Origin: an uncultured Granulosicoccaceae bacterium
Lineage (GTDB): Bacteria > Pseudomonadota > Gammaproteobacteria > Granulosicoccales > Granulosicoccaceae
DNA length: 35,816 nucleotides
Reading direction: 5' to 3'
Assembly (NCBI GenBank): GCA_938045275.1
Contig: CALIMV010000227.1
Span: forward strand, 1 to 35,816
Part shown: piece after piece, positions 4,364 through 25,148 of the stretch
Layout: each line of letters begins with the position of its first letter
Position numbering within the stretch: position 1 is the stretch's first letter
The notes under the pieces: model-generated
What the model was told of the DNA's origin: nothing
Databases searched by the model: none
The model's input: the letters and a program-made list of their open reading frames with translations, nothing else
Program-made: the position numbers and the translations under genes

Positions 4364-6169
4364 CTAAAGTTTGGGTTTCACACTGACCACATTCGCATGA
4401 ACTTTTGACACGTTTTCATAGACATTCTCAGCCACATCATCAACATCGGCATGCTGTAATGTGCCACTCGCGCCACGCCCTAATTCAGCCGCATTGGCTT
4501 CGTCTGTATCGATGTGCATTTCCAGTGCGTAGCTGTCTTTTACGCGAATAAGCACATCTCCAAAAATCAAGTCTCTTTCACCACCTACCACAGCAATTGA
4601 AACTTCGTCTTTATCGTTAACACCAAATTGCTCAGCATCGTTCGTGTGCATATGGATATGTCGACGCGCACAGATTAGCCCTTCACTTAAGTGCACGGTA
4701 CCTGCCGGGCCTTCTACTGTAATGGGTGCAGAATCTTTAACTTTGCCAGAATCACGCACTGGCGCATCCACCCCTAGCTTGAATTCATCCGTGCGTGATA
4801 TTTCTATTTGATCAACGCTACGCAACGGCCCAAGTAAGCGTACACCATCAATACGATCACGCGGTCCGATCAGATTAATGCGCTCTTCACAGGCGAACTG
4901 ACCTGGTTGTGACAACGGCTTATATTCGGTTGGTGTGGCATCTTTTCCAAACAGTTTTTCAAACGTTTCTTGCGTCAAGTGGCAATGCCTGCCACTGATA
5001 GCGATGGGAATTGCCTGATTAGGCTTGGCAGTGGACGCATTAACGACACGCCGTGATTCGCGTGCAATCATGAGTTCTTCATTGGTTTTAACAACAATTG
5101 CCTCAACCCGAGATCGCTCAGTGGTTATACGTGCAAAATCCTTATCACTCACCACGCTGGCATCACGGTTGCGGTCTTCATCCAGCACCACACCCAAAAA
5201 TTCAAGTCGCTGCAATATTCGACCGCGCATACTTGCGCTGTTCTCGCCTATTCCGCCTGTAAAGGCAATAACATCCACACCGCCCATGGCCGCAGCATAA
5301 GCGCCAATGTATTTTCTGGCGCGGTGTGCAAATACATTGATAGCCAGGCGCGCACGATCGTGTCCGTCAGCAGCAGCGCGTTCAATCTCCCGTAAGTCGT
5401 TACCCAATCCCGACAACCCTGCCAGACCACTTTGATGATTGAGTAACTCGTCGAGTGCGTCGATGTCGTATTCGCCGCTGCGTAACAAAGACAACAGCAC
5501 GCCTGCATCAACATCACCCGATCGCGTTCCCATGACCAGGCCTTCCAATGGTGTGTTGCCCATGCTGGTTTCAGCCGACCGCCCGAACTCAACTGCACAG
5601 GCGCTTGCGCCATTGCCTAAATGCAAAGTGATCAGCCGCAGTTCGTCCAAAGGCCGCTGCACAAACGTTGCGGCAATGCCGGCCGCGTACTGATGAGATA
5701 TACCGTGGAAACCGAATCGCCTGATTCCATGGCGTTTAGCAACATCCTGGTCGATCGCATAGGTGGTTGCGCGGCGCGGCATACCCGAATGAAAAGCGGT
5801 ATCAAAAACGGCCACGTGCGGTACTGCCGGCACGGCGTTCTGTGCTGATTCAATGGCCGCCAGACTGTAAGGGTTGTGCATAGGGGCATCTGGAATATGT
5901 CGCTCGATTTCAGCCTTTACTCGGTCGTTGAGCAGACAGGACTCATGGCATTCTTCTCCACCGTGCACAACTCGATGACCAACCGCATCTATCTGGTGTT
6001 CGCCCAGCTCGCTAAAAATGGTCGCTATGGCTTGGGCATGCGTCTCTTTTCGGTCATCCGATTTTTGCCCGAGTCGCTCGCGTTTACCGCTGATAAGCAT
6101 ATTCTCATCTGCATCAAACAAAGCGTATTTAACACTCGATGAACCACAATTTATAACCAGCACATTCAT
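4364..6169 (-). CDS. bifunctional acetate kinase / PduL-type phosphotransacylase fusion
   Basis: One 601-codon frame joins two enzymes of the acetyl-CoA/acetate pathway. Residues 1-374 are a full acetate kinase: start motif MNVLVINCGSSSVKY, GHRVVHGGE, FDTAFHSG, GFHGISHQY, GTRSGDVDAG, GGIGENS and TNEELMIARE. Residues about 385-565 are a PduL phosphate acyltransferase, with the metal-binding histidine clusters SGRHCHLT (RHCH about 394-397) and CARRHIHMHT, and the family end EMHIDTDEANAA. A tail of about 35 residues follows. The ATG at 6169 is chosen because acetate kinases begin exactly there; an in-frame ATG at 6202 adds 11 non-conserved residues. The fusion should convert acetyl-CoA and phosphate through acetyl-phosphate to acetate and ATP, or the reverse. 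No microcompartment encapsulation peptide or shell genes are seen. Confidence 0.93.
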   Translation of the reverse strand: MNVLVINCGSSSVKYALFDADENMLISGKRERLGQKSDDRKETHAQAIATIFSELGEHQIDAVGHRVVHGGEECHESCLLNDRVKAEIERHIPDAPMHNPYSLAAIESAQNAVPAVPHVAVFDTAFHSGMPRRATTYAIDQDVAKRHGIRRFGFHGISHQYAAGIAATFVQRPLDELRLITLHLGNGASACAVEFGRSAETSMGNTPLEGLVMGTRSGDVDAGVLLSLLRSGEYDIDALDELLNHQSGLAGLSGLGNDLREIERAAADGHDRARLAINVFAHRARKYIGAYAAAMGGVDVIAFTGGIGENSASMRGRILQRLEFLGVVLDEDRNRDASVVSDKDFARITTERSRVEAIVVKTNEELMIARESRRVVNASTAKPNQAIPIAISGRHCHLTQETFEKLFGKDATPTEYKPLSQPGQFACEERINLIGPRDRIDGVRLLGPLRSVDQIEISRTDEFKLGVDAPVRDSGKVKDSAPITVEGPAGTVHLSEGLICARRHIHMHTNDAEQFGVNDKDEVSIAVVGGERDLIFGDVLIRVKDSYALEMHIDTDEANAAELGRGASGTLQHADVDDVAENVYENVSKVHANVVSVKPKL

Positions 6170-6259
6170 GTTGGTGTATCCCGTAGATTTAGTTGGCAAC
6201 ATTGCAATGACTTATCGAGAATAGCAGCCGCATTCGAAAGCGACACTGAGCCTGGCATA

Positions 6260-14203: not shown

Positions 14204-14635
14204 CGGGTCTATCTCTGGTGTTTAGGCACTGATTCAACAGTTTTTTTTTGGATATTAGTATCGTAGAACAGTTCGACAAAACTTGTGGGGTTCGAGACCG
14301 CAGATGACTGAATTTCGACGGTAAAAGCACAATATTTCTAAATATTTCACAATTTGTCAATATTTTTGAACCCGATCAATATTTTCTTCACCATCCTAGC
14401 CGTTATTACTAATTACACAGTAGTTTACTTTTCCCACACGCAATAAAAGTCCGGCAACTTTTCAGCCCTATTTCATCTGGGAATGCGAAAATGGGTTGGA
14501 GTAGCAGTCTCGATTTTCATTTTGCTGCACCGTAACTAAACTGTATTAATGGATTGGAAAATGTTGACTTTGGCCAATGAAGTGAGGGTTCCAAGCCTCA
14601 CGTCCAAAAGTAACAATAACAAGAGGAAAACGGCA
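14204..14635. promoter_or_regulatory. AT-rich divergent control region with repeated CAATATTT boxes
   Basis: This gene-free region separates the PKD sugar dehydrogenase from the GH16 gene and should carry both promoters. Its centre is markedly AT-rich. The octamer CAATATTT occurs exactly at 14330-14337, 14358-14365 and 14377-14384, with a one-base variant AAATATTT at 14340-14347. The spacings are 10, 18 and 19 bp, close to whole helical turns for the later pairs. A direct-repeat regulator binding site is possible. No assignable -10/-35 pair stands out. A nine-T run at 14242-14250 has no stem and is not a terminator. Confidence 0.35.
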
Positions 14636-16930
14636 TTGAACAAGCAACATGTTGCTCTATTAATCCGAAATTTTGTCATTCTGGTTACTTTCGCAGTCTT
14701 GCCATCTTTGGCCCACGCTCTGGAAGCGCCTCGCGATACCAGAGGAACCCTCATCACTTCAGATGTAATCAAGTGGGAATGGAACGGCGTCAACGGAGCA
14801 ACTCGCTATCAAGTCAACGTCAACGGATCTTTCGTCTCAATGACGAACGATAAGCATTTCTACAGTCGTAATCTCTCACCCGGTAACTACACATTCAACG
14901 TTCAGGCGGTCAACAACGAAGGTCGGTATTCCTCTCCGTCAGCAACATCCGCAGCGCTTACCGTGGGTGGCTCATCTGGTGACTCATCACAGAGCAATTC
15001 TAATTTGCCCGCCCCCAGAGACCCAAGAGGGACTGTGGTTCGTGCTGGCGAATCTAAATGGGAATGGGCACGGGTCGAAGGCGCCGGACAATACGAAGTG
15101 TTTGTTAACAACAACCCCGTCGGACTCACTACCGATTTATACGTGTACACACCTGGCTTAAGCGCTGGCGAACACACAATGAAAGTACGGGCTGTGGACA
15201 ACAATGGCGGTCGATCTGCCGACTCGGCGATCGCAAGAGTTACCATCGCTGGCGGCTCTGGTAGCAGCAATAACACAAGTAGCAACGCCTCAAGCGGCAA
15301 TGCGACCAGTCGCTCCAGTGACAATACCGGTTCCAACAATCTGGCAGCGCCAAGAGACCCAAGAGGTACTCGAGTACGCCCGGGTGAAATCAAATGGGAA
15401 TGGGCTCAGGTTTCTGGCGCCAGCGGTTATGAAGTTACCGTTAATGGCACCACTTACAACGCTTCACCACTGTTTCTGTATACGAAAAATCTGCCGATTG
15501 GTGAACACACCATGACCGTAAAAGCGCTCACCAGCGATGGACGAACGTCTCCTGCCTCCAACCAGGCCAAGGCGTCAACCTGGGAGAACGGACCTGGTGG
15601 CCCCATCGTTAATAATCAAAGTCAGAGTCAAAGTACCCAGAGCACTCAAAGTACGCAAAGCAACGAATCTGCTGACGTAGCTGTTAACACCCCTACCAAT
15701 GTTAGAGGAACGCAAATCAGCGATATAGAAATCAAATGGGAATGGCAGGAAGTGCCTGGTGCAACTGGCTATCAGCCTTATCTTAACGGATCGGCTGCAA
15801 ATATTACTCAAGACGGGCATCTGTACACAGGTAACTTGCCCAGTGGTGATCACTCGTTCAGTGTGGCAGCCGTAGATGCACAAGGTCGGCACACAGCCCA
15901 ATCTGTCAGTGCTGTTGTTACACTCAATGGCAACTTTTCCGATACCAGCAGCGGCGTTGCACCGCCTCCGCCAGCTAACGACAATGGTTTGATCGACCCA
16001 GCATCTTGGAACTACAGTGAAGTCAGCCAGAAGCCGGGCTACGAACTGGTGTTCAGTGATGAGTTCAACAGCAACGCACTAAACCGGAATCGTTGGAACA
16101 CCCAATTACGTTGGGACGGTTCGTACAACGGCGAACGGTACGAATACCGCTTAATTAATGGCGAGTCGCAGTTCTATGTAAACACCTATTCTGAAGATCC
16201 GGCACATTTGGACAAGGTTGCTTCGGTGTATAACCCGTTTGAATTCGATGGCAATCGACTGGCTATTCGCGCTATAAAAAATCCGCTAAAAAATCGCGAT
16301 ACGAAGCGACTGTACGGACCACTGGACGATATCTACCAACAACAACCCTTTCTGTCTGGCGCAATCTCCACGTACGATAAATTTAGCCAGAAGTACGGTT
16401 ACTACGAAGCACGAATTAAGATTCCATCGCATGAGGGCACTTTTCCAGCTTTCTGGTTACACCATCAAAGACGCGAATGGGAAGGTACGAATAAAACCGA
16501 AATCGACATTATGGAAAACCTTGGACACAGGACTGACTATGTGTACACCGCCGGGCATTACTACACCGGTGTCAGTGAAACCCATGGTGGTACAGCACAT
16601 GCGATTAAGCCATCTCCGCAAGGGCAAATTCATACGGGCACGTATTACAGCGACGACTATCACGTCTATGCCGCGGAATGGAGCCCTGGTGTAATTCGCT
16701 ATATGATCGATGGCCAACAAGTCAGTGAAATCAGAAACGGCGCATTCGACCACGAACCGTTGTATATGATCTTTAACCTGGCCGTTGGTGGCATCTGGTT
16801 TAATATGCCAACAAACGCAGGCGGCTCGGGTCGCTCATCAGACAATCGTTTCCCAACTCAGCAAGATATCGATACATGGGGAAATCCTGCTCTTGAAATT
16901 GACTGGGTTCGGGTTTACAAAGCTCAGTAG
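14636..16930 (+). CDS. secreted GH16 family beta-glucanase with four N-terminal repeats
   Basis: An exported glycoside hydrolase. The catalytic GH16 domain occupies the last 300 residues and has the family active-site motif EIDIMENLGH (nucleophile Glu, assisting Asp, acid/base Glu), plus HVYAAEWSPG and a closing EIDWVRVYKAQ. Before it are four FN3-like modules of about 80 residues, each with PR(D)xRGT, KWEW, GAxxYxVxVNG and a final Tyr-rich strand, joined by Ser/Asn/Gln/Thr linkers. The frame is open from an ATG at 14549, but I prefer TTG at 14636: AAGAGG lies at good distance before it, and it leaves a normal signal peptide ending SLAHA. The ATG form has a 30-residue polar extension and no ribosome binding site. 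Activity on laminarin-type or related beta-glucans is inferred; the exact substrate cannot be assigned. Confidence 0.9.
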   Translation: MNKQHVALLIRNFVILVTFAVLPSLAHALEAPRDTRGTLITSDVIKWEWNGVNGATRYQVNVNGSFVSMTNDKHFYSRNLSPGNYTFNVQAVNNEGRYSSPSATSAALTVGGSSGDSSQSNSNLPAPRDPRGTVVRAGESKWEWARVEGAGQYEVFVNNNPVGLTTDLYVYTPGLSAGEHTMKVRAVDNNGGRSADSAIARVTIAGGSGSSNNTSSNASSGNATSRSSDNTGSNNLAAPRDPRGTRVRPGEIKWEWAQVSGASGYEVTVNGTTYNASPLFLYTKNLPIGEHTMTVKALTSDGRTSPASNQAKASTWENGPGGPIVNNQSQSQSTQSTQSTQSNESADVAVNTPTNVRGTQISDIEIKWEWQEVPGATGYQPYLNGSAANITQDGHLYTGNLPSGDHSFSVAAVDAQGRHTAQSVSAVVTLNGNFSDTSSGVAPPPPANDNGLIDPASWNYSEVSQKPGYELVFSDEFNSNALNRNRWNTQLRWDGSYNGERYEYRLINGESQFYVNTYSEDPAHLDKVASVYNPFEFDGNRLAIRAIKNPLKNRDTKRLYGPLDDIYQQQPFLSGAISTYDKFSQKYGYYEARIKIPSHEGTFPAFWLHHQRREWEGTNKTEIDIMENLGHRTDYVYTAGHYYTGVSETHGGTAHAIKPSPQGQIHTGTYYSDDYHVYAAEWSPGVIRYMIDGQQVSEIRNGAFDHEPLYMIFNLAVGGIWFNMPTNAGGSGRSSDNRFPTQQDIDTWGNPALEIDWVRVYKAQ

Positions 16931-16953
16931 ATCTGAGAATAAATTAAGACTCG

Positions 16954-17059: not shown

Positions 17060-18067
17060 TTAGCGTCTGGTTCCATTTTTTTTGGCAGCTACCTTCGTCT
17101 TCCTTTTTGATTTCTTTTTAGCCATCGTCGGCCTTTCAACGTTTGCATCTGGTACCTTAATTTTTTTCCCGATTGTTGTGGTAAGAAGGTCTTTTAGTCG
17201 GCGAGTTTCCTGCGCCTTCACTTGAAGTCTCTCTGATCTTGCTCTAAGTATCATTTCTTCGCCAGTGAAAGGGTTCAGACCTTTACGCTCGGGCTTGCCC
17301 TCTCTGAAGGATGCGCGCAATTTCATGATTGTCAGTAAACATGTTTTGTTCTTCTTCTCAAGATCGTCGATAAGGCATTCTTCGTATGCTTGTAGGATAG
17401 TCTGCACATCAAATTCCGAATGACCCGTTTTCTCAGCAACTAGTTGAATATGTTTCTTATTACTACTACTGAGTGAACCTGAGAAACCAAGGTCGCTATA
17501 TCGTTCGGGTTTGTCATCTTTGGATAGTTCGTTATCTGAGGCTGGACCTGGAGTTGTTGATTCTATAGCTTTTGGAATGCTAGAAAACCTGTCTTGTGAA
17601 CGTTTCGAAAGTGCTGTTAGCGATCGCTTAACACGACCCTCAAGTTTCTTGAATATCTCATCCAGCTCTTGTAGATTCTTTGTTTTCTTCAGGCGCTTTT
17701 GCAATACTTCGTGAGCTGCCTCGTCTTCCTTTTTCATCAGCTTGATGGTTGGTGCTAGCGTCTTGTTGCTTGTGACAAGTGCATCGCGATCATCAGCTGT
17801 GAATAGAAAACCACATATTAGAGATTGAGTGTAGTAATTTAGGTGTTCATCATCATCTATATATTCAGAAGACAAATCACATATCGCTTGAAAAGCTTCT
17901 TTTCTGACGGCAAAACCACTTTCAAATTTTTTTAACTCAGCATGTTTAATGTTGCGGCTAGCTACCGTCATGTAGTGTGAAAGGACACGGTGATCACCTG
18001 CACGCCAGCTCATTTGCCAAATCTCAATAGAAGCAATTGTTCCTAGAACATAGCGACATTTCTCCAT
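17060..18067 (-). CDS. HU/IHF-like DNA-binding domain protein with novel N-terminal region
   Basis: The 335-residue protein is not recognised as a whole. Residues about 201-297 look like the HU/IHF fold: an opening KKHIQLVAEKTGHSEFDVQ helix pair, a middle beta segment, then the arm/return signature KGLNPFTGEEMILRARSERL and a last helix RRLKDLL. HU proteins have RNPxTGEEI at the same place. The tail 316-335 is strongly basic (AKKKSKRKTK), like histone H1-type tails. Residues 1-160 are alpha-helical and Lys/Glu-rich with no known motif; 160-200 is a polar linker. The ATG at 18067 is used; an alternative ATG at residue 19 (18013) is possible. A DNA-structuring or nucleoid role is inferred from the HU domain. 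It stands alone between carbohydrate genes and has a more AT- and Lys-rich composition than its neighbours. Confidence 0.75.
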   Translation of the reverse strand: MEKCRYVLGTIASIEIWQMSWRAGDHRVLSHYMTVASRNIKHAELKKFESGFAVRKEAFQAICDLSSEYIDDDEHLNYYTQSLICGFLFTADDRDALVTSNKTLAPTIKLMKKEDEAAHEVLQKRLKKTKNLQELDEIFKKLEGRVKRSLTALSKRSQDRFSSIPKAIESTTPGPASDNELSKDDKPERYSDLGFSGSLSSSNKKHIQLVAEKTGHSEFDVQTILQAYEECLIDDLEKKNKTCLLTIMKLRASFREGKPERKGLNPFTGEEMILRARSERLQVKAQETRRLKDLLTTTIGKKIKVPDANVERPTMAKKKSKRKTKVAAKKNGTRR

Positions 18068-18194
18068 TCCGCTTGAATGGATAACACTGAGAATATATGT
18101 GCGATGTAGGCTCTTTGTATTTGCGCTGCTTCAGTTTAGCCGTGATTTGGGTATTCAGTACAAGGCTGCTTTTGCACTTGCTCGTTTTCCTAAA

Positions 18195-20480
18195 CTACAA
18201 AGAATCGATCCAATCGCCGATTATTTTAACGGCTGCCTCATCAACAACATGCGTTGACAATGGCGGCATGCGGGCATCGTCGAGTGCACGCATGCGATGC
18301 CATAACACGCTGCGTTCTTTACTGCCTCTGGCAATAATGCGTGCGTCCACAATGTCGAAGCTACCGGCTTGCGGGACAACATCTATGGCATTCATGACAC
18401 CGTTGTCGGCATCGACTCGAAAATTCATGGTGGTAGGCGCTGGGCCTTGCGGTTGATGACAGTTGCTGCAATTAACATCGAGGTACGCACGCGCCCGTTG
18501 CTCAATAGTCGCCGATTCATCAGTTAACGGTGGCAGCACTTTGTACTGATCGACCGCGCCAATATCGCTATTGAACAATCCAATTGCATTTAAAGTTTGC
18601 AACTGATTGGCCGTAGTGGCCCCATAAGCAAAGTTCGCATTCAACTGCCCAGTCTCCAAGCCCAGCAGGAAGGTGGATGCATCGTTGTGGCATGCACTGC
18701 AGTCGGCCTGACTTGGGTAATCGTATTGCTGCACACGTGTGCTGCCATCGTTCAGACTCACCGTTAATGATTCTGTTTCGCGCCCCAGCAGCAAATTAGC
18801 TTCCGTTTCAGCCGCGTTCCAGCGATAGGTAAAGCCTTGCCAGCCCTGATTCGTGTTGTACATAACACGAGTTTCCAGACGTCGTCGGCTGTCGGGTGCG
18901 TTTTGCACTCGCTCAAATTCAAAGTGTTTTATCGATACTGACCCTACAGGAAACGTCCAGTCATCGGCAGTAAAGTCTATCTTGGCATTGTCAGGCACAC
19001 CAATCCAACGGCGCTTGACGGTGCCATCAGACCAGAAGGGGTGGCTCGGTTCGTATTCAATAAAACCACTGACTGGCGTTAACGATGCCAGATCACTGAA
19101 TAACCCTGTTGCCGATAGCGTGGCTGGAAACGCTATATTTCCTGTGCTCTCAACAAATTTATACAATCCGTTGTAACGCGATACCACAAGCAGTTCGCCA
19201 TCCTTCGTTTCACCAAAGCTGGTTGGCGAACCTACATTGCCCACAACATCAACTGAGGTAACCGAATCTCCTGCAAGCGTTAGCGCTGTTACCGTGCCGG
19301 CAGTAAAATCTGAGTAAATGTATCGGCCTTGCAAAGAACTCACGGCTCCGCGGTAAACATAGCCACCAATAACAGCCAATCCTAAATCATGGGTGTACTC
19401 ATGAATGGGCGGTATAGCCACACCATCGGGTAACGGCTCCTGGCCGGCTCTGAGGCCTGCACCCTCGTATACCCGCCAACCGTAGTTACCACCGGCGGTG
19501 ACTTTGTTGATTTCTTCAATATCGTTCTGTCCAACATCGCCAACCCACAAGTCACCTGTTTGACGATCAAAGGAAAAGCGCCAAGGGTTGCGAAAACCAT
19601 AAGCGTAAATTTCTGTACGTACATTGGCTTCACCAACAAACGGATTGGAAGGCGGTACCACATAGCCCACACCATCGGGCGTGTTGACGTCAATTCGCAA
19701 TATGCTGCCCAGCAACGTATTGCGATTCTGGCCATTGTTGTTTGGATCGCCACCATCGCCACCATCACCAAGCCCGAAGTACAAATAATTGTCTGGTCCA
19801 AACGCCAGCATGCCGCCGTTGTGGGCAAAGAACGGCTGTTCTACTTGCAGCACAATTTTTGCACTAGTCGGCTCGAGTTTATCCGTTGCGCTATCCCAAC
19901 GCAGTCGTGTAACGACTGAATCCCATGTGCCTACCTGGGTGTGGTAGATGTAAACAAACCGGTTTTCAGTAAAGCGTGGGTCGAACGCAAGACCAAGTAA
20001 TCCTTGCTCGCCACTGTCCTTTGCTACATTGCCAGAGTAATCGAGAATCTCTGTGGCAGTGGTAACAGCTGGGTTGTCGTCAAATACTTTGATCTTGCCA
20101 AATTGCTCCACTACCACCAGGCGGTTTTCACCCGGAACGTCGTCTACAAACAAAGCTTCCTGGAAGGTCAGGTTTGGATAGGCGTTAACTAATTCATAAT
20201 TGCCCTGCCTCACTCCATCGATTGGCAGATTAAAAGCTGCCAGTGATGCCCGTGTACTCAAGCCAACAGTGTCACCCGTACTGGTGGTACCGGCGCTTGT
20301 GTCATTGGAGCCTGTTGCGGTGGTCGTTCCACCGTTGTCCGATGCGCTTACTAAGGCTGTGCCCGTATCGTCGCCGGTATCGGTTGCTTGTGGCACACTT
20401 GCGCTGTCGCTGCTGTCACAAGATGCGATAAACAGGCACAGCGCGAATAAAATTGAAGAGTTGTGAGAGAGATTTGGCAT
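18195..20480 (-). CDS. PQQ-type sugar dehydrogenase fused to a dihaem c-type cytochrome domain, lipoprotein
   Basis: The 761-residue predicted lipoprotein has the lipobox FIAS-C at Cys21 and a long Asp/Thr/Ser/Gly tether to about residue 75. Residues about 95-445 are a glucose/sorbosone (soluble aldose) dehydrogenase propeller: GEQGLLGLAFDPRF, FFAHNGGMLAFGPDNYLYFG, GDGGDGGDPNNNGQN, YGFRNPWRFSFD and GGNYGW. Residues about 450-761 match the SO2930/HNE_0200-type dihaem cytochrome region, with haem motifs CSACH (594-598) and CSNCH (671-675) and a late RMPPL that may supply an axial Met. The design would pass electrons from sugar oxidation straight to haem on the cell envelope. PQQ dependence is inferred from the family. 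It has its own 5' region with a LacI-like operator. Confidence 0.9.
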   Translation of the reverse strand: MPNLSHNSSILFALCLFIASCDSSDSASVPQATDTGDDTGTALVSASDNGGTTTATGSNDTSAGTTSTGDTVGLSTRASLAAFNLPIDGVRQGNYELVNAYPNLTFQEALFVDDVPGENRLVVVEQFGKIKVFDDNPAVTTATEILDYSGNVAKDSGEQGLLGLAFDPRFTENRFVYIYHTQVGTWDSVVTRLRWDSATDKLEPTSAKIVLQVEQPFFAHNGGMLAFGPDNYLYFGLGDGGDGGDPNNNGQNRNTLLGSILRIDVNTPDGVGYVVPPSNPFVGEANVRTEIYAYGFRNPWRFSFDRQTGDLWVGDVGQNDIEEINKVTAGGNYGWRVYEGAGLRAGQEPLPDGVAIPPIHEYTHDLGLAVIGGYVYRGAVSSLQGRYIYSDFTAGTVTALTLAGDSVTSVDVVGNVGSPTSFGETKDGELLVVSRYNGLYKFVESTGNIAFPATLSATGLFSDLASLTPVSGFIEYEPSHPFWSDGTVKRRWIGVPDNAKIDFTADDWTFPVGSVSIKHFEFERVQNAPDSRRRLETRVMYNTNQGWQGFTYRWNAAETEANLLLGRETESLTVSLNDGSTRVQQYDYPSQADCSACHNDASTFLLGLETGQLNANFAYGATTANQLQTLNAIGLFNSDIGAVDQYKVLPPLTDESATIEQRARAYLDVNCSNCHQPQGPAPTTMNFRVDADNGVMNAIDVVPQAGSFDIVDARIIARGSKERSVLWHRMRALDDARMPPLSTHVVDEAAVKIIGDWIDSL

Positions 20481-20843: not shown

Positions 20844-21329
20844 TTAGTTATTTGGCGATAACAGCAATGCCTTATCGATTGAGTGAAATTCACTCGCTTC
20901 GTTTATCAGCGAATTAGCCGTCAATTTAGCCACACCGTATACTTCCACTCGTTTTTGTTTACCAACTCGAATTTTATTGGCAAGCAGATCAAAATCACCA
21001 TCGCCAGATACTAAAACGATGATGTCAGCGTGGTCTGCGTAATCCATCATGTCAATGGTGATTCCGACATCCCAGTCGCCTTTGGCAGAACCATCAGAGC
21101 GCTGAATAAACGGTTTTAGTTTTACCTCAAACCCAATGGCTCTGAGGATATTTTGAAACTCTTTTTGTTTTTGATCGCCTCTGTCGATTGCATAGGCAAA
21201 GGCCTTAACAACTTCTCTGTTATTGGTGGCTTGATACCAGAACTTGTTATAGTCAAAGTGCTTTCCAAAGGTTTGTCTTGTTGTGTAGTAAACGTTTTGG
21301 ACATCAACAAAAATGGCAACTTTTTTCAT
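20844..21329 (-). CDS. NYN domain protein (LabA/DUF88 family), predicted PIN-like nuclease
   Basis: The 161-residue single NYN domain is a PIN-like metal-dependent nuclease fold. The acidic positions of the family are all visible: VAIFVDVQN with Asp9, KGDWDVGITIDMMDYA with Asp85, Asp87 and Asp93, and VLVSGDGDFD with Asp110, Asp112 and Asp114. The length is normal for stand-alone members. The ATG at 21329 is chosen because the family begins MKKVAIFVD; the TTG two codons upstream is less likely. A 92-bp relic of a second copy of its codons 19-48 lies at 22138-22229. RNA cleavage is inferred from the family. The cellular target is unknown. Its neighbours on the same strand are a lipoprotein gene and an AAA ATPase gene. 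Confidence 0.9.
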   Translation of the reverse strand: MKKVAIFVDVQNVYYTTRQTFGKHFDYNKFWYQATNNREVVKAFAYAIDRGDQKQKEFQNILRAIGFEVKLKPFIQRSDGSAKGDWDVGITIDMMDYADHADIIVLVSGDGDFDLLANKIRVGKQKRVEVYGVAKLTANSLINEASEFHSIDKALLLSPNN

Positions 21330-21399
21330 ATGCAACTAGCGTTATTATTAGCGTGTTGTACTTATCACGATTTATTTGGCTAAGGTATTTTCAAACCAT

Positions 21400-22101
21400 T
21401 TACAAGACAGAAACATCTTTTAAATAACTTACCACTTCCTCAGCTATTGTTCCCAGTGCTTTTGCCGTTGCCTCTAATTCTGCCTTTTTTATTGTTTCAG
21501 AAAAATTATTATCATCGGCCGTTTTTACAGCTGCAAAACTTTCGGTACTCGCGATAGATTTGACAATAATTCCAGACCTTATATCGAGCAAAATAGCTTC
21601 GACCGAACAATAAGACTTTGTTTCATCATCTGAGAGGATTCTGTATTTCTGGTACGAATTGCACAAAGTACGATAACCAAAAAGCAAGTCAGCTTGAAAT
21701 CGTGCAGCCGCTTCTCGCAGTATAGGAACAGATTTATCCGCAGGTATTAACATAGCTGGCAGAATTGACGCATCGTAGACTCTTTCAGAAGACCGCAATT
21801 TGTCAATTAACTGCGTAACAATCGAATCGGTGAGTTGGGTGAAGTCATCTGAATAAAATCGCCATCGACTCTCCCCGTTTAGTTTCAATATCGCTATCCG
21901 GCTAGACTTAGGCAGGGTTACGCGATAATTGAGCAAAGCCCGAATTTTTTCGTCGTTATCCGCAAGCGTTATTTCATTAAATAGGCCGACTTGCTCATTC
22001 GTTGAAGCGTCTTCGTAGTAACTACTGGGCCTCTCTACAGAGCTAACGGTCGCGCAAGCTTGTAAGAAAATCGTAATGACAACAATCAATAGTAATTTCA
22101 T
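21400..22101 (-). CDS. predicted lipoprotein of unknown function
   Basis: The 233-residue product has the signal sequence MKLLLIVVITIFLQAC, so Cys16 should be lipidated. The start is well supported: ATG at 22101 has the ribosome binding site AAGGA six bases upstream. A longer frame to 22209 only reads, out of frame, through the NYN relic. The mature part has alternating helix and strand character (RIAILKLNGES, VYDASILPAMLIP, FQADLLFGYRTLC, VEAILLDIRSG) and ends in a helix. This resembles the general layout of several small outer-membrane lipoprotein families whose domain assembles around secretion or stress systems. I could not place it in a named family. Two cysteines (in TLCNSY and SYCSVE) could form a disulfide. 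Confidence 0.8.
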   Translation of the reverse strand: MKLLLIVVITIFLQACATVSSVERPSSYYEDASTNEQVGLFNEITLADNDEKIRALLNYRVTLPKSSRIAILKLNGESRWRFYSDDFTQLTDSIVTQLIDKLRSSERVYDASILPAMLIPADKSVPILREAAARFQADLLFGYRTLCNSYQKYRILSDDETKSYCSVEAILLDIRSGIIVKSIASTESFAAVKTADDNNFSETIKKAELEATAKALGTIAEEVVSYLKDVSVL

Positions 22102-22137
22102 ATTTTTCCTTAACTGGCTAGAAGCTCGTTTAAGTGC

Positions 22138-22229
22138 CAATCGCATGGGCAAAGGCCTTGACAAGCTCCCTGTTGTTCGTGCCTTGAGACCGGAACTTGT
22201 TATAGTCAAAGTGCTTTACACAGGTTTGT
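22138..22229 (-). pseudogene. relic of a second NYN-domain gene
   Basis: This 92-bp stretch aligns without gaps to 21185-21276 inside the NYN gene (constant offset 953) at about 80% identity, ending abruptly at both sides. Read in the NYN frame on the minus strand, it gives QTCVKHFDYNKF, then TNNRELVKAFAHAI, against QTFGKHFDYNKF and TNNREVVKAFAYAI in the intact gene. It then meets a stop. Many differences are third-base changes, so the copy diverged as a coding sequence before it was cut down. It lies between the AAA ATPase stop and the lipoprotein start. Confidence 0.85.
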
Positions 22230-22238
22230 ATTAATTCC

Positions 22239-23003
22239 TCACTCACTATCCGACGCTATCAGGTTATTTAACATCCCTTCTCTGTTATTCATGAATTGGC
22301 GAGTAATTCGAACATGCTCAGTCTCTTCATATTCTGTTTGTGCCAGCCCGGAATCCTCTAACACATAAATGAGCGCTTCTGGGTACGCCATTATGATCGG
22401 TGAATGGGTCGCTACAATAAACTGACAGCCTTGTTTAACCAGTTCATCCATGCGAGCCAGCATAGCGAGCTGCCGTGTTGGCGACAAAGCGGCCTCAGGC
22501 TCATCTAAAATATACAACGATGATCCTGAAAAACGGTTTAGCAACAGCGCCATAAACGATTCGCCATGTGATTGTTCATGTAAAGACCGATCACCATAGT
22601 AGCTGATTATTTTTGGCCCAGCGGGATAGATGTCCTCTTCGTCCAGGTTTTCGATTTCTGTAGCAACATTGAAAAAGCTCTCTGCTCTTAGAAAAAACCC
22701 GTCTTTGGGTTTTTTGATACCCCTGGACAAGCGCAAATACTGATCGAGCACAGAGTGTGATTTTCGTGTGTTGAATCCAAAGTTCTTTGAACCACCTTCC
22801 GGATTAAAACCTGCAGCGACAGCAATAGCTTCCAGCAATGTTGACTTTCCTGAACCATTCTCGCCAATAAAAAAAGTGACTGCGGGGTGCAGTGCTACGC
22901 TGTGCAGTTGCTTTATAGCTGGCAGGGAAAATGGGTATTCAGCAAAGTTGTCTATTTTTTCGCGTTTAAGTTTTACATCGATAATAAACTGTTCAGACAA
23001 CAT
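22239..23003 (-). CDS. AAA/ABC-type ATPase (AAA_21-like, predicted ATP-binding protein)
   Basis: The 254-residue cytoplasmic ATPase has the SMC/ABC-like arrangement but no membrane domain: Walker A FFIGENGSGKST (45-55), an ABC-type signature SHGESF (145-150), Walker B LYILDEPEAALSP (163-175) and an H-loop ATHSP with His200. The N-terminal strand set before Walker A (LKREKIDNFAEYPFSLPAI) is typical of the AAA_21/AAA_23 group, whose members occur alone as predicted ATP-binding proteins or as parts of OLD/Ppl-like defence and repair systems. No partner effector domain is fused. Downstream on the same strand are a NYN relic, a lipoprotein and an intact NYN nuclease. A shared function with them is possible but not shown. 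Confidence 0.88.
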   Translation of the reverse strand: MLSEQFIIDVKLKREKIDNFAEYPFSLPAIKQLHSVALHPAVTFFIGENGSGKSTLLEAIAVAAGFNPEGGSKNFGFNTRKSHSVLDQYLRLSRGIKKPKDGFFLRAESFFNVATEIENLDEEDIYPAGPKIISYYGDRSLHEQSHGESFMALLLNRFSGSSLYILDEPEAALSPTRQLAMLARMDELVKQGCQFIVATHSPIIMAYPEALIYVLEDSGLAQTEYEETEHVRITRQFMNNREGMLNNLIASDSE

Positions 23004-23960: not shown

Positions 23961-25064
23961 TTACTTAGGCAATGCGCCCTGCACTCCTTCAACATAGTAG
24001 TCCATACCGAGTAGCACATCGTCTCCCAGCACGGCACCTTCAGCGACCACTTCTTCGCCTGCCTGATTCTTGATTGGACCCTGGAAAGGATGAAATGAGC
24101 CATCAACAATGCCTTCCTTGATGGCATCTGCTGCAGCTTTCACATCATCGGGTACATTTGCACCATACTCAGCAAAAGCAACCATACCGCTGTCGATACC
24201 ATCCCAAACATCTTGTGATTCCCAATTGCCATCCATTACAGCCCGGGTGCGTTCAACATAGTACTCGTTCCAGTCGTCAATAATGGACGTGAGCTGAGCT
24301 TCTGGTGCAAAAGCACTCATGTCTGAGGCTTGTCCAAAACCCATAACACCACGTTCCTGAGCTGCCTGCAAAGGCGCAGGAGAATCGGTATGTTGAGTGA
24401 TGATGTCGGCGCCTTGATCAATGAGCGTTTTCGCTGCATCACTTTCCTTTCCTGGGTCATACCAGCTATTGACCCACACAACACGAACTTCGGCCTCAGG
24501 GTTAACTTTGCGCATGGCAATCGTAAAGGCGTTAATGCCGCGTACTACCTCTGGGATAGGAAAGGACCCTATATAACCGATAACATTAGACTTGGTCATC
24601 ATGCCAGCCATAGTACCGAGTACGGCACGGCCTTCATAGAATCGCGCGGAGTAAGTAGACACGTTATCGGCGCGTTTATACCCAGTTGCATGTTCAAATT
24701 TAACGTCAGGGAAAGCCTTCGCAACCTTGTTAGTTGGGTTCATGTAACCAAATGACGTTGTGAAAATTAAATCGTGCCCGTCGCTGGCAAGTTTACGTAT
24801 AACACGTTCAGCATCGGCGCCTTCTGAAACACTTTCTACAAATGTGGTTTCAACTTTGTCTCCAAACTCGGCTTCTATCGCCAGGCGTCCTACATCGTGT
24901 CGGTAAGTCCAGCCATGATCGCCAATTGGCCCTACGTAAACGAAGCCAACTTTTACCGGGTCGGCCGCGAGTACTGACGCACTGCTGAAAGATAACAAAG
25001 CAGCCACAAGCGCTAACGACACTTTTCTAAGGCTTGCTGCTTTAAAAACTGAGCTTACAAACAT
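23961..25064 (-). CDS. BMP-family ABC transporter substrate-binding protein (purine/nucleoside type)
   Basis: The 367-residue periplasmic binding protein belongs to the basic-membrane-protein (PnrA/BmpA) family, which captures purine nucleosides or nucleobases for an ABC importer. It has a normal signal peptide ending SASVLA, then VKVGFVYVGPIGDHGWTYRH, the family opening in which the Asp-His-Gly-Trp loop lies at the ligand site. Later family motifs are IFTTSFGYM, GYIGSFPIPEVVRGINAF, VNSWYDPGKE and GADIITQHTDS. The start at 25064 is chosen because GGAG stands six bases before it. The frame stays open upstream through a 12-bp repeat, which would add 27 Lys/Val residues if a GTG there were used. 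It is the last gene of the importer operon and is separated from the permeases by 115 bp. Confidence 0.93.
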   Translation of the reverse strand: MFVSSVFKAASLRKVSLALVAALLSFSSASVLAADPVKVGFVYVGPIGDHGWTYRHDVGRLAIEAEFGDKVETTFVESVSEGADAERVIRKLASDGHDLIFTTSFGYMNPTNKVAKAFPDVKFEHATGYKRADNVSTYSARFYEGRAVLGTMAGMMTKSNVIGYIGSFPIPEVVRGINAFTIAMRKVNPEAEVRVVWVNSWYDPGKESDAAKTLIDQGADIITQHTDSPAPLQAAQERGVMGFGQASDMSAFAPEAQLTSIIDDWNEYYVERTRAVMDGNWESQDVWDGIDSGMVAFAEYGANVPDDVKAAADAIKEGIVDGSFHPFQGPIKNQAGEEVVAEGAVLGDDVLLGMDYYVEGVQGALPK

Positions 25065-25148
25065 CTTTTTCTCCACTATTTTCACGACAATTTTCACGAT
25101 TTTTTTCACGACTTTTTTCACCACTTTTTTCACCACTTTTTTCACGAC
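25065..25148 (-). repeat. seven-unit imperfect 12-bp tandem repeat in the BMP gene leader
   Basis: On the minus strand seven consecutive 12-mers of the form GTSGTGAAAAAA run directly into the ATG at 25064. The first four are nearly identical (GTCGTGAAAAAA or GTGGTGAAAAAA) and the last three are degenerate. The last unit supplies the GGAG ribosome binding site. The unit is in frame with the gene and has no stop codons, so it could also be translated from an internal GTG as a Val-Lys-Lys-rich extension. Copy number could vary by slippage and change leader length without shifting frame. Confidence 0.9.

Follow-up and report, generated by a model that had tools for sequence, protein, structure and literature searches.

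A large HU-family protein with a C-terminal basic tail and an N-terminal region without recognised relatives in a marine gammaproteobacterium

Overall architecture of P0001

We describe P0001, a protein of 335 residues from a marine gammaproteobacterium, in which an HU/IHF domain is joined to a long N-terminal region. Its sequence and structural model contain an HU fold with the HU arm motif, two arm insertions and a basic tail, and the gene is absent from the relatives searched. We consider it fairly likely that P0001 is a lineage-specific, fast-diverging architectural DNA-binding protein of the HU family, whose N-terminus would bind a partner or oligomerise and thereby bridge DNA or recruit that partner. 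HU cores comprise about 90 residues. The HU part of P0001 is ordinary in kind; its fusion to an orphan N-terminus of about 200 residues is unusual, as is the position of the basic tail, at the C-terminus and not at the customary N-terminus.

The gene lies in contig C227 of an assembly of 5.75 Mb, with 499 contigs and a completeness of 82%. This contig is the window, that is, the whole stretch of 35,816 nucleotides that was analysed. The gene and the parts of its product are:

17060–18067, minus strand: open reading frame P0001, 335 aa, stop codon included in the span
17564–18067, minus strand: residues 1–168, N-terminal region for which no relatives were recognised; helices appear only in a single-sequence model of low confidence
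17468–17563, minus strand: residues 169–200, polar Ser/Pro/Asp/Lys linker, read from the sequence
17168–17467, minus strand: residues 201–300, HU/IHF domain, from PF00216, the structure model and PDB fold matches
17255–17287, minus strand: residues 261–271 (RKGLNPFTGEE), beta-arm tip with proline, from alignment with 46 HU proteins
17063–17167, minus strand: residues 301–335, C-terminal segment, Lys/Arg-rich at 313–335, read from the sequence

The start codon was assumed to be the first ATG, at 18067; no strong ribosome-binding site was seen before it, and a consensus scan found no promoter-like site. A frame of 335 codons occurred in none of 1000 simulated intervals (first-order Markov, 1263-base interval), and the stop-to-stop length of the observed frame is 356, compared with a maximum of 271 in 1000 simulations. 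The linker has no regular structure in the weak single-sequence model. The Lys/Arg-rich tail that an earlier note on this DNA had placed after the HU part is present, with 11 Lys/Arg and no Asp/Glu in the 23 residues from 313 to 335.

P0001 contains a divergent HU domain

An HU-like fold at about residues 201–297, proposed in the earlier note, is borne out by profile search and fold comparison, in that both a family match and an HU topology were found. PF00216 matches residues 207–278 above its cut-off of 22.4 (E 2.9e-7, 31.1 bits; 32.9 bits in the genome-wide search), and phrog_379 (PHROG 379) matches P0001 at E 2.3e-7. A profile (A2) made from the P0001 domain and 64 relatives, covering 17162–17482, matches 33 distinct sequences in the PDB, headed by pA104R of African swine fever virus (ASFV; 5.8e-23) and followed by HU (3.9e-14). 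For this alignment, 88 HU ORFs were reduced to 67 and then, with L138, L148 and L157 left out, to the 64 used.

The AlphaFold model of residues 196–302 on the A2 alignment has a mean pLDDT of 89.6 and a pTM of 0.64, and is biased toward the HU fold, since the alignment is built from HU relatives. It has helices at 201–214, 218–237 and 289–300, the second and third being separated by five strands, giving the order helix-helix-strands-arm-helix over about residues 201–300. Foldseek comparison of this model with the PDB ranks pA104R first (2.4e-7), HU second (5.5e-6) and further HU and IHF chains next, while among viral models it retrieves phage type II DNA-binding proteins and p104R. A chance match to HU was considered and is ruled out by PF00216, the PDB profile matches, the pLDDT of the domain model and the Foldseek result.

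According to PMC7712801, HU-family proteins have a helical dimer body and arms with DNA-inserting prolines at their tips, and the tip proline inserts between base pairs. In P0001, N265, P266, F267, T268 and G269 form the NPxTG arm-tip motif, proline included, and R261, K262, G263, N265, P266, F267, T268, G269, E270 and E271 are each the majority residue in 46 relatives. Ten alignment columns are invariant in these 46 proteins; P0001 keeps six (K249, G263, P266, F267, A276 and K292) and differs at the other four, at residues 256, 257, 278 and 289. The identity of its core with the 64 relatives is 23–34%. Because of this strong divergence and the four altered columns, DNA binding by P0001 could differ from that of its relatives.

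The HU domain resembles the HU_ins branch

The genome encodes four PF00216 proteins according to the profile search, so that the P0001 gene is an extra copy. The other three are:

C84:13476: classical HU, PF00216
C84:46458: PF00216 protein taken as IHF-type, the label being ours
Contig C166: ordinary HU_ins-type protein, PF00216

Compared with the classical HU of its own genome, P0001 carries three extra residues at each of two places in the arm region. Both insertions are also present in the lysine-alanine-tailed HU proteins of the genus and in the HU_ins-type protein of the genome. According to PMC5683647, every HU_ins sequence contains an insert of 3 or 5 residues in beta strand 2, and most of them begin with a lysine-rich stretch of about 40 residues. 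From that description, we read the lysine-alanine-tailed proteins of the genus as probable HU_ins members. P0001 resembles HU_ins in its three-residue insert in beta strand 2, with a second insert in common with the HU_ins-type protein of its genome. It differs in that its N-terminus of about 200 residues lacks lysine-rich repeats and in that its basic tail is C-terminal. Specifically, residues 1–168 contain 29 Lys/Arg, 24 Asp/Glu and no KKA repeat, and thus do not form a lysine-rich extension. Since PMC5683647 ascribes such an extension to most and not all HU_ins proteins, the mismatch is compatible with membership.

In the trees, from which the PF00216 proteins of loci L172, L174 and L179 are absent, the P0001 domain falls on the HU_ins-type side (84/90 and 89/90), on a very long branch of 1.75–2.33 changes per column whose placement the program flags as unsure.

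The nearest structure, by profile and by fold, is ASFV pA104R (PDB 6lmh and 6lmj), whose arms likewise hold two additional sets of residues, as stated in PMC7712801. It differs in being a viral protein of 104 residues without the N-terminal region, and the likeness is to the entire HU_ins-like branch, not to P0001 specifically. Because arm insertions are known from both HU_ins and pA104R, the P0001 core is not a new fold. The suggestion that the protein had not been described accordingly fails for its HU part, which carries the arm insertion of the HU_ins branch published in PMC5683647. A separate observation concerns the viral protein: by the profile values given above, pA104R is by far the nearest solved structure to the bacterial HU branch of P0001, which hints at where pA104R may have originated.

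Actinobacterial HU proteins with a C-terminal tail, of which HupB is an example, share with P0001 a basic tail behind the HU core. In HU_acti_C, according to PMC5683647, this tail is on average 111 residues long and contains PAKKA repeats, whereas that of P0001 has about 23 residues and no PAKKA, and its core belongs to another branch. The Bacteroidetes HU_bacL proteins reach a similar total length through a long extension (mean 238 residues), but there, according to the same paper (PMC5683647), the extension is C-terminal and highly charged, while the long extension of P0001 is N-terminal. More generally, the HU extensions that PMC5683647 describes are mainly lysine-rich or charged tails.

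The N-terminal region has no recognised relatives

The earlier description of the N-terminal half as unrecognised stands after searches of Pfam, the PDB and PADLOC, none of which gave a convincing match. At E 0.001, residues 1–168 were found among 48 genomes of the order in their own genome only, and in none of the 26 other genomes of the genus, several of which are incomplete. Among 398 genomes of the phylum, five besides the own genome matched at E 0.05 (best 0.0178), which we take as chance. No match was confirmed in viral contigs, only two were obtained in phages, at E 3 and 4, and none in plasmids at E 10.

Searches with the whole protein lead to the same picture. At E 1e-6, 88 of 369 genomes of the class matched, own genome included; among the class-genome matches listed, only the own gene started before residue 150. 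One genome of the genus matched from residue 127, and its ORF encodes a lysine-rich HU of 147 residues (L006). Full-length relatives were found neither in viral contigs nor in genome contigs. A comparable N-terminal region is present in none of 46 HU ORFs taken from loci of the genus, the family and the class and in none of 88 from genome and viral contigs, these sets consisting of the best loci per search (in one case the best 80 of 529 confirmed stretches), so that a rare longer homologue could escape. The longest HU ORFs surveyed have 218 and 262 aa; in both, the extra length appears to be open frame ahead of a MAKK-type start.

The single-sequence AlphaFold model of full-length P0001 has a mean pLDDT of 39.1, with blocks of 30–42 over residues 1–168, and the fold of this region is unreadable. 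Residues 96–168 are basic, with a net charge of +9, and residues 127–161 are amphipathic (hydrophobic moment p 0.005, one of five stretches, uncorrected).

PADLOC returned a weak similarity of residues 107–171 to Cas8b (E 0.0026). Together with the two-part architecture and its linker, this could indicate that P0001 acts as a regulator or in a conflict system, with a sensor or effector at its N-terminus that the HU part serves only to anchor to DNA. We regard this as very improbable: the match takes in some 65 of the 658 positions of the profile, lies in a charged stretch and is probably an effect of composition, and no neighbour in the window was recognised as forming a known system with P0001.

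Genomic context and origin of the P0001 gene

The P0001 gene is flanked by two genes of sugar metabolism:

14549–16930, plus strand: GH16 glycoside hydrolase gene
18195–20480, minus strand: GSDH-type sugar dehydrogenase gene

As the earlier note had remarked, its composition departs from theirs, with a GC of 0.418 (GC3 0.37) against 0.497 and 0.509. AT-richness as a peculiarity of P0001 was rejected, the genes at 20844–22209 being alike (GC 0.402 and 0.415). The synonymous codon log-odds of P0001 is −0.043, compared with an average of −0.005 for wrong frames of other genes; among 25 genes scored, only 21400–22209 is lower. Since this codon usage is not that of typical host coding sequence, the case that P0001 is coding rests on its frame length and its HU match.

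Atypical codons, the very long branch, the loss of several invariant residues and the orphan N-terminus would all fit a degenerating HU_ins duplicate with little or no function, in which the core drifts and the N-terminus derives from formerly non-coding or rearranged DNA. We consider such decay distinctly unlikely, in view of an unbroken 335-codon frame that exceeds all 1000 simulations and an intact arm motif. The core also stands apart from the HU_ins-type protein of the same genome in the trees, where its placement is weak.

Downstream of the GSDH orthologues in genomes G015 and G010 there are different genes and no counterpart of P0001; the comparison was made with these two, the orthologue in G003 reaching a contig end. 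The GH16 gene of G015 is likewise followed by another gene, near a contig end. Because the neighbours differ among relatives, the interval is variable, and gain in the lineage of P0001 is the simplest reading, with loss elsewhere, among genomes of which several are incomplete, as a conceivable alternative. Absence from relatives and AT-rich composition are compatible with acquisition.

Acquisition could have been by a phage, plasmid or other mobile element that left behind an HU-like helper of DNA packaging or recombination as cargo in the chromosome. The low GC and atypical codons, the absence from all other genus genomes searched and from the region downstream of the two GSDH orthologues, and the occurrence of HU-family relatives on plasmids and viral contigs are in line with this origin. 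In addition, the gene is bracketed by a direct near-repeat of 12 bases, 11 of which agree, at 16933–16944 and 18087–18098; it may be a target-site duplication or chance, and two-copy short repeats often arise by chance. We nevertheless judge a mobile origin of this kind unlikely, and the mobile-element protein suggested in the earlier note finds no positive backing in the limited checks made: there is no tRNA, no integrase or transposase was recognised on reading the window ORFs, none of 50,697 phage records matched P0001 at a cut-off of E 0.1, and the plasmid matches, in 17 plasmid records, are restricted to the HU part.

A possible mode of action

We return to P0001 as a probable architectural DNA-binding protein, for which specialised nucleoid protein would be a reasonable label. 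We expect the HU_ins-type core to form a dimer by way of its helices, and the two long beta arms of the dimer, tipped with Asn-Pro-Phe-Thr-Gly, would clamp and presumably bend DNA. The Lys/Arg tail would contribute non-specific affinity for DNA. The flexible linker would display the N-terminal ~160 residues, a candidate oligomerisation or partner-binding module of which each HU dimer would carry two. With two such regions per dimer, bridging of DNA or recruitment of a partner becomes possible, and P0001 might in this way do more than coat DNA.

A bolder version, which we hold to be quite a long shot, is that the N-terminal region is a new domain through which the HU dimer either bridges DNA bivalently or acts as a regulator addressed to DNA, and that P0001 founds a type of large HU with the basic tail behind the core. 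As a non-repetitive N-terminus of about 200 residues on an HU_ins-type core, P0001 would offer a test case for nucleoid proteins gaining functions through domain fusion; because it comes from a single draft genome, it carries limited weight until relatives or a function emerge.

Other features of the window

Three further regions were noted in the window:

20844–23003, minus strand: AT-rich stretch encoding an NYN-domain protein (PF01936), a product that matches no Pfam family, and a small AAA ATPase
23961–25145, minus strand: listed frame that opens with a valine/lysine repeat, MKKVVKKVVKKVVKKIVK, before an apparent signal peptide
4364–6202, minus strand: one frame of 612 residues with acetate kinase (PF00871, 14–381) and PduL-type phosphate propanoyltransferase (PF06130, 399–574)

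The orthologue of the small AAA ATPase adjoins the GSDH gene in G010. The real start codon of the frame at 23961–25145 probably lies further in. The acetate kinase/PduL fusion has matches in 21 of 27 genomes of the genus, own included, at E 1e-50, and most of the best matches span both parts in a single open frame.
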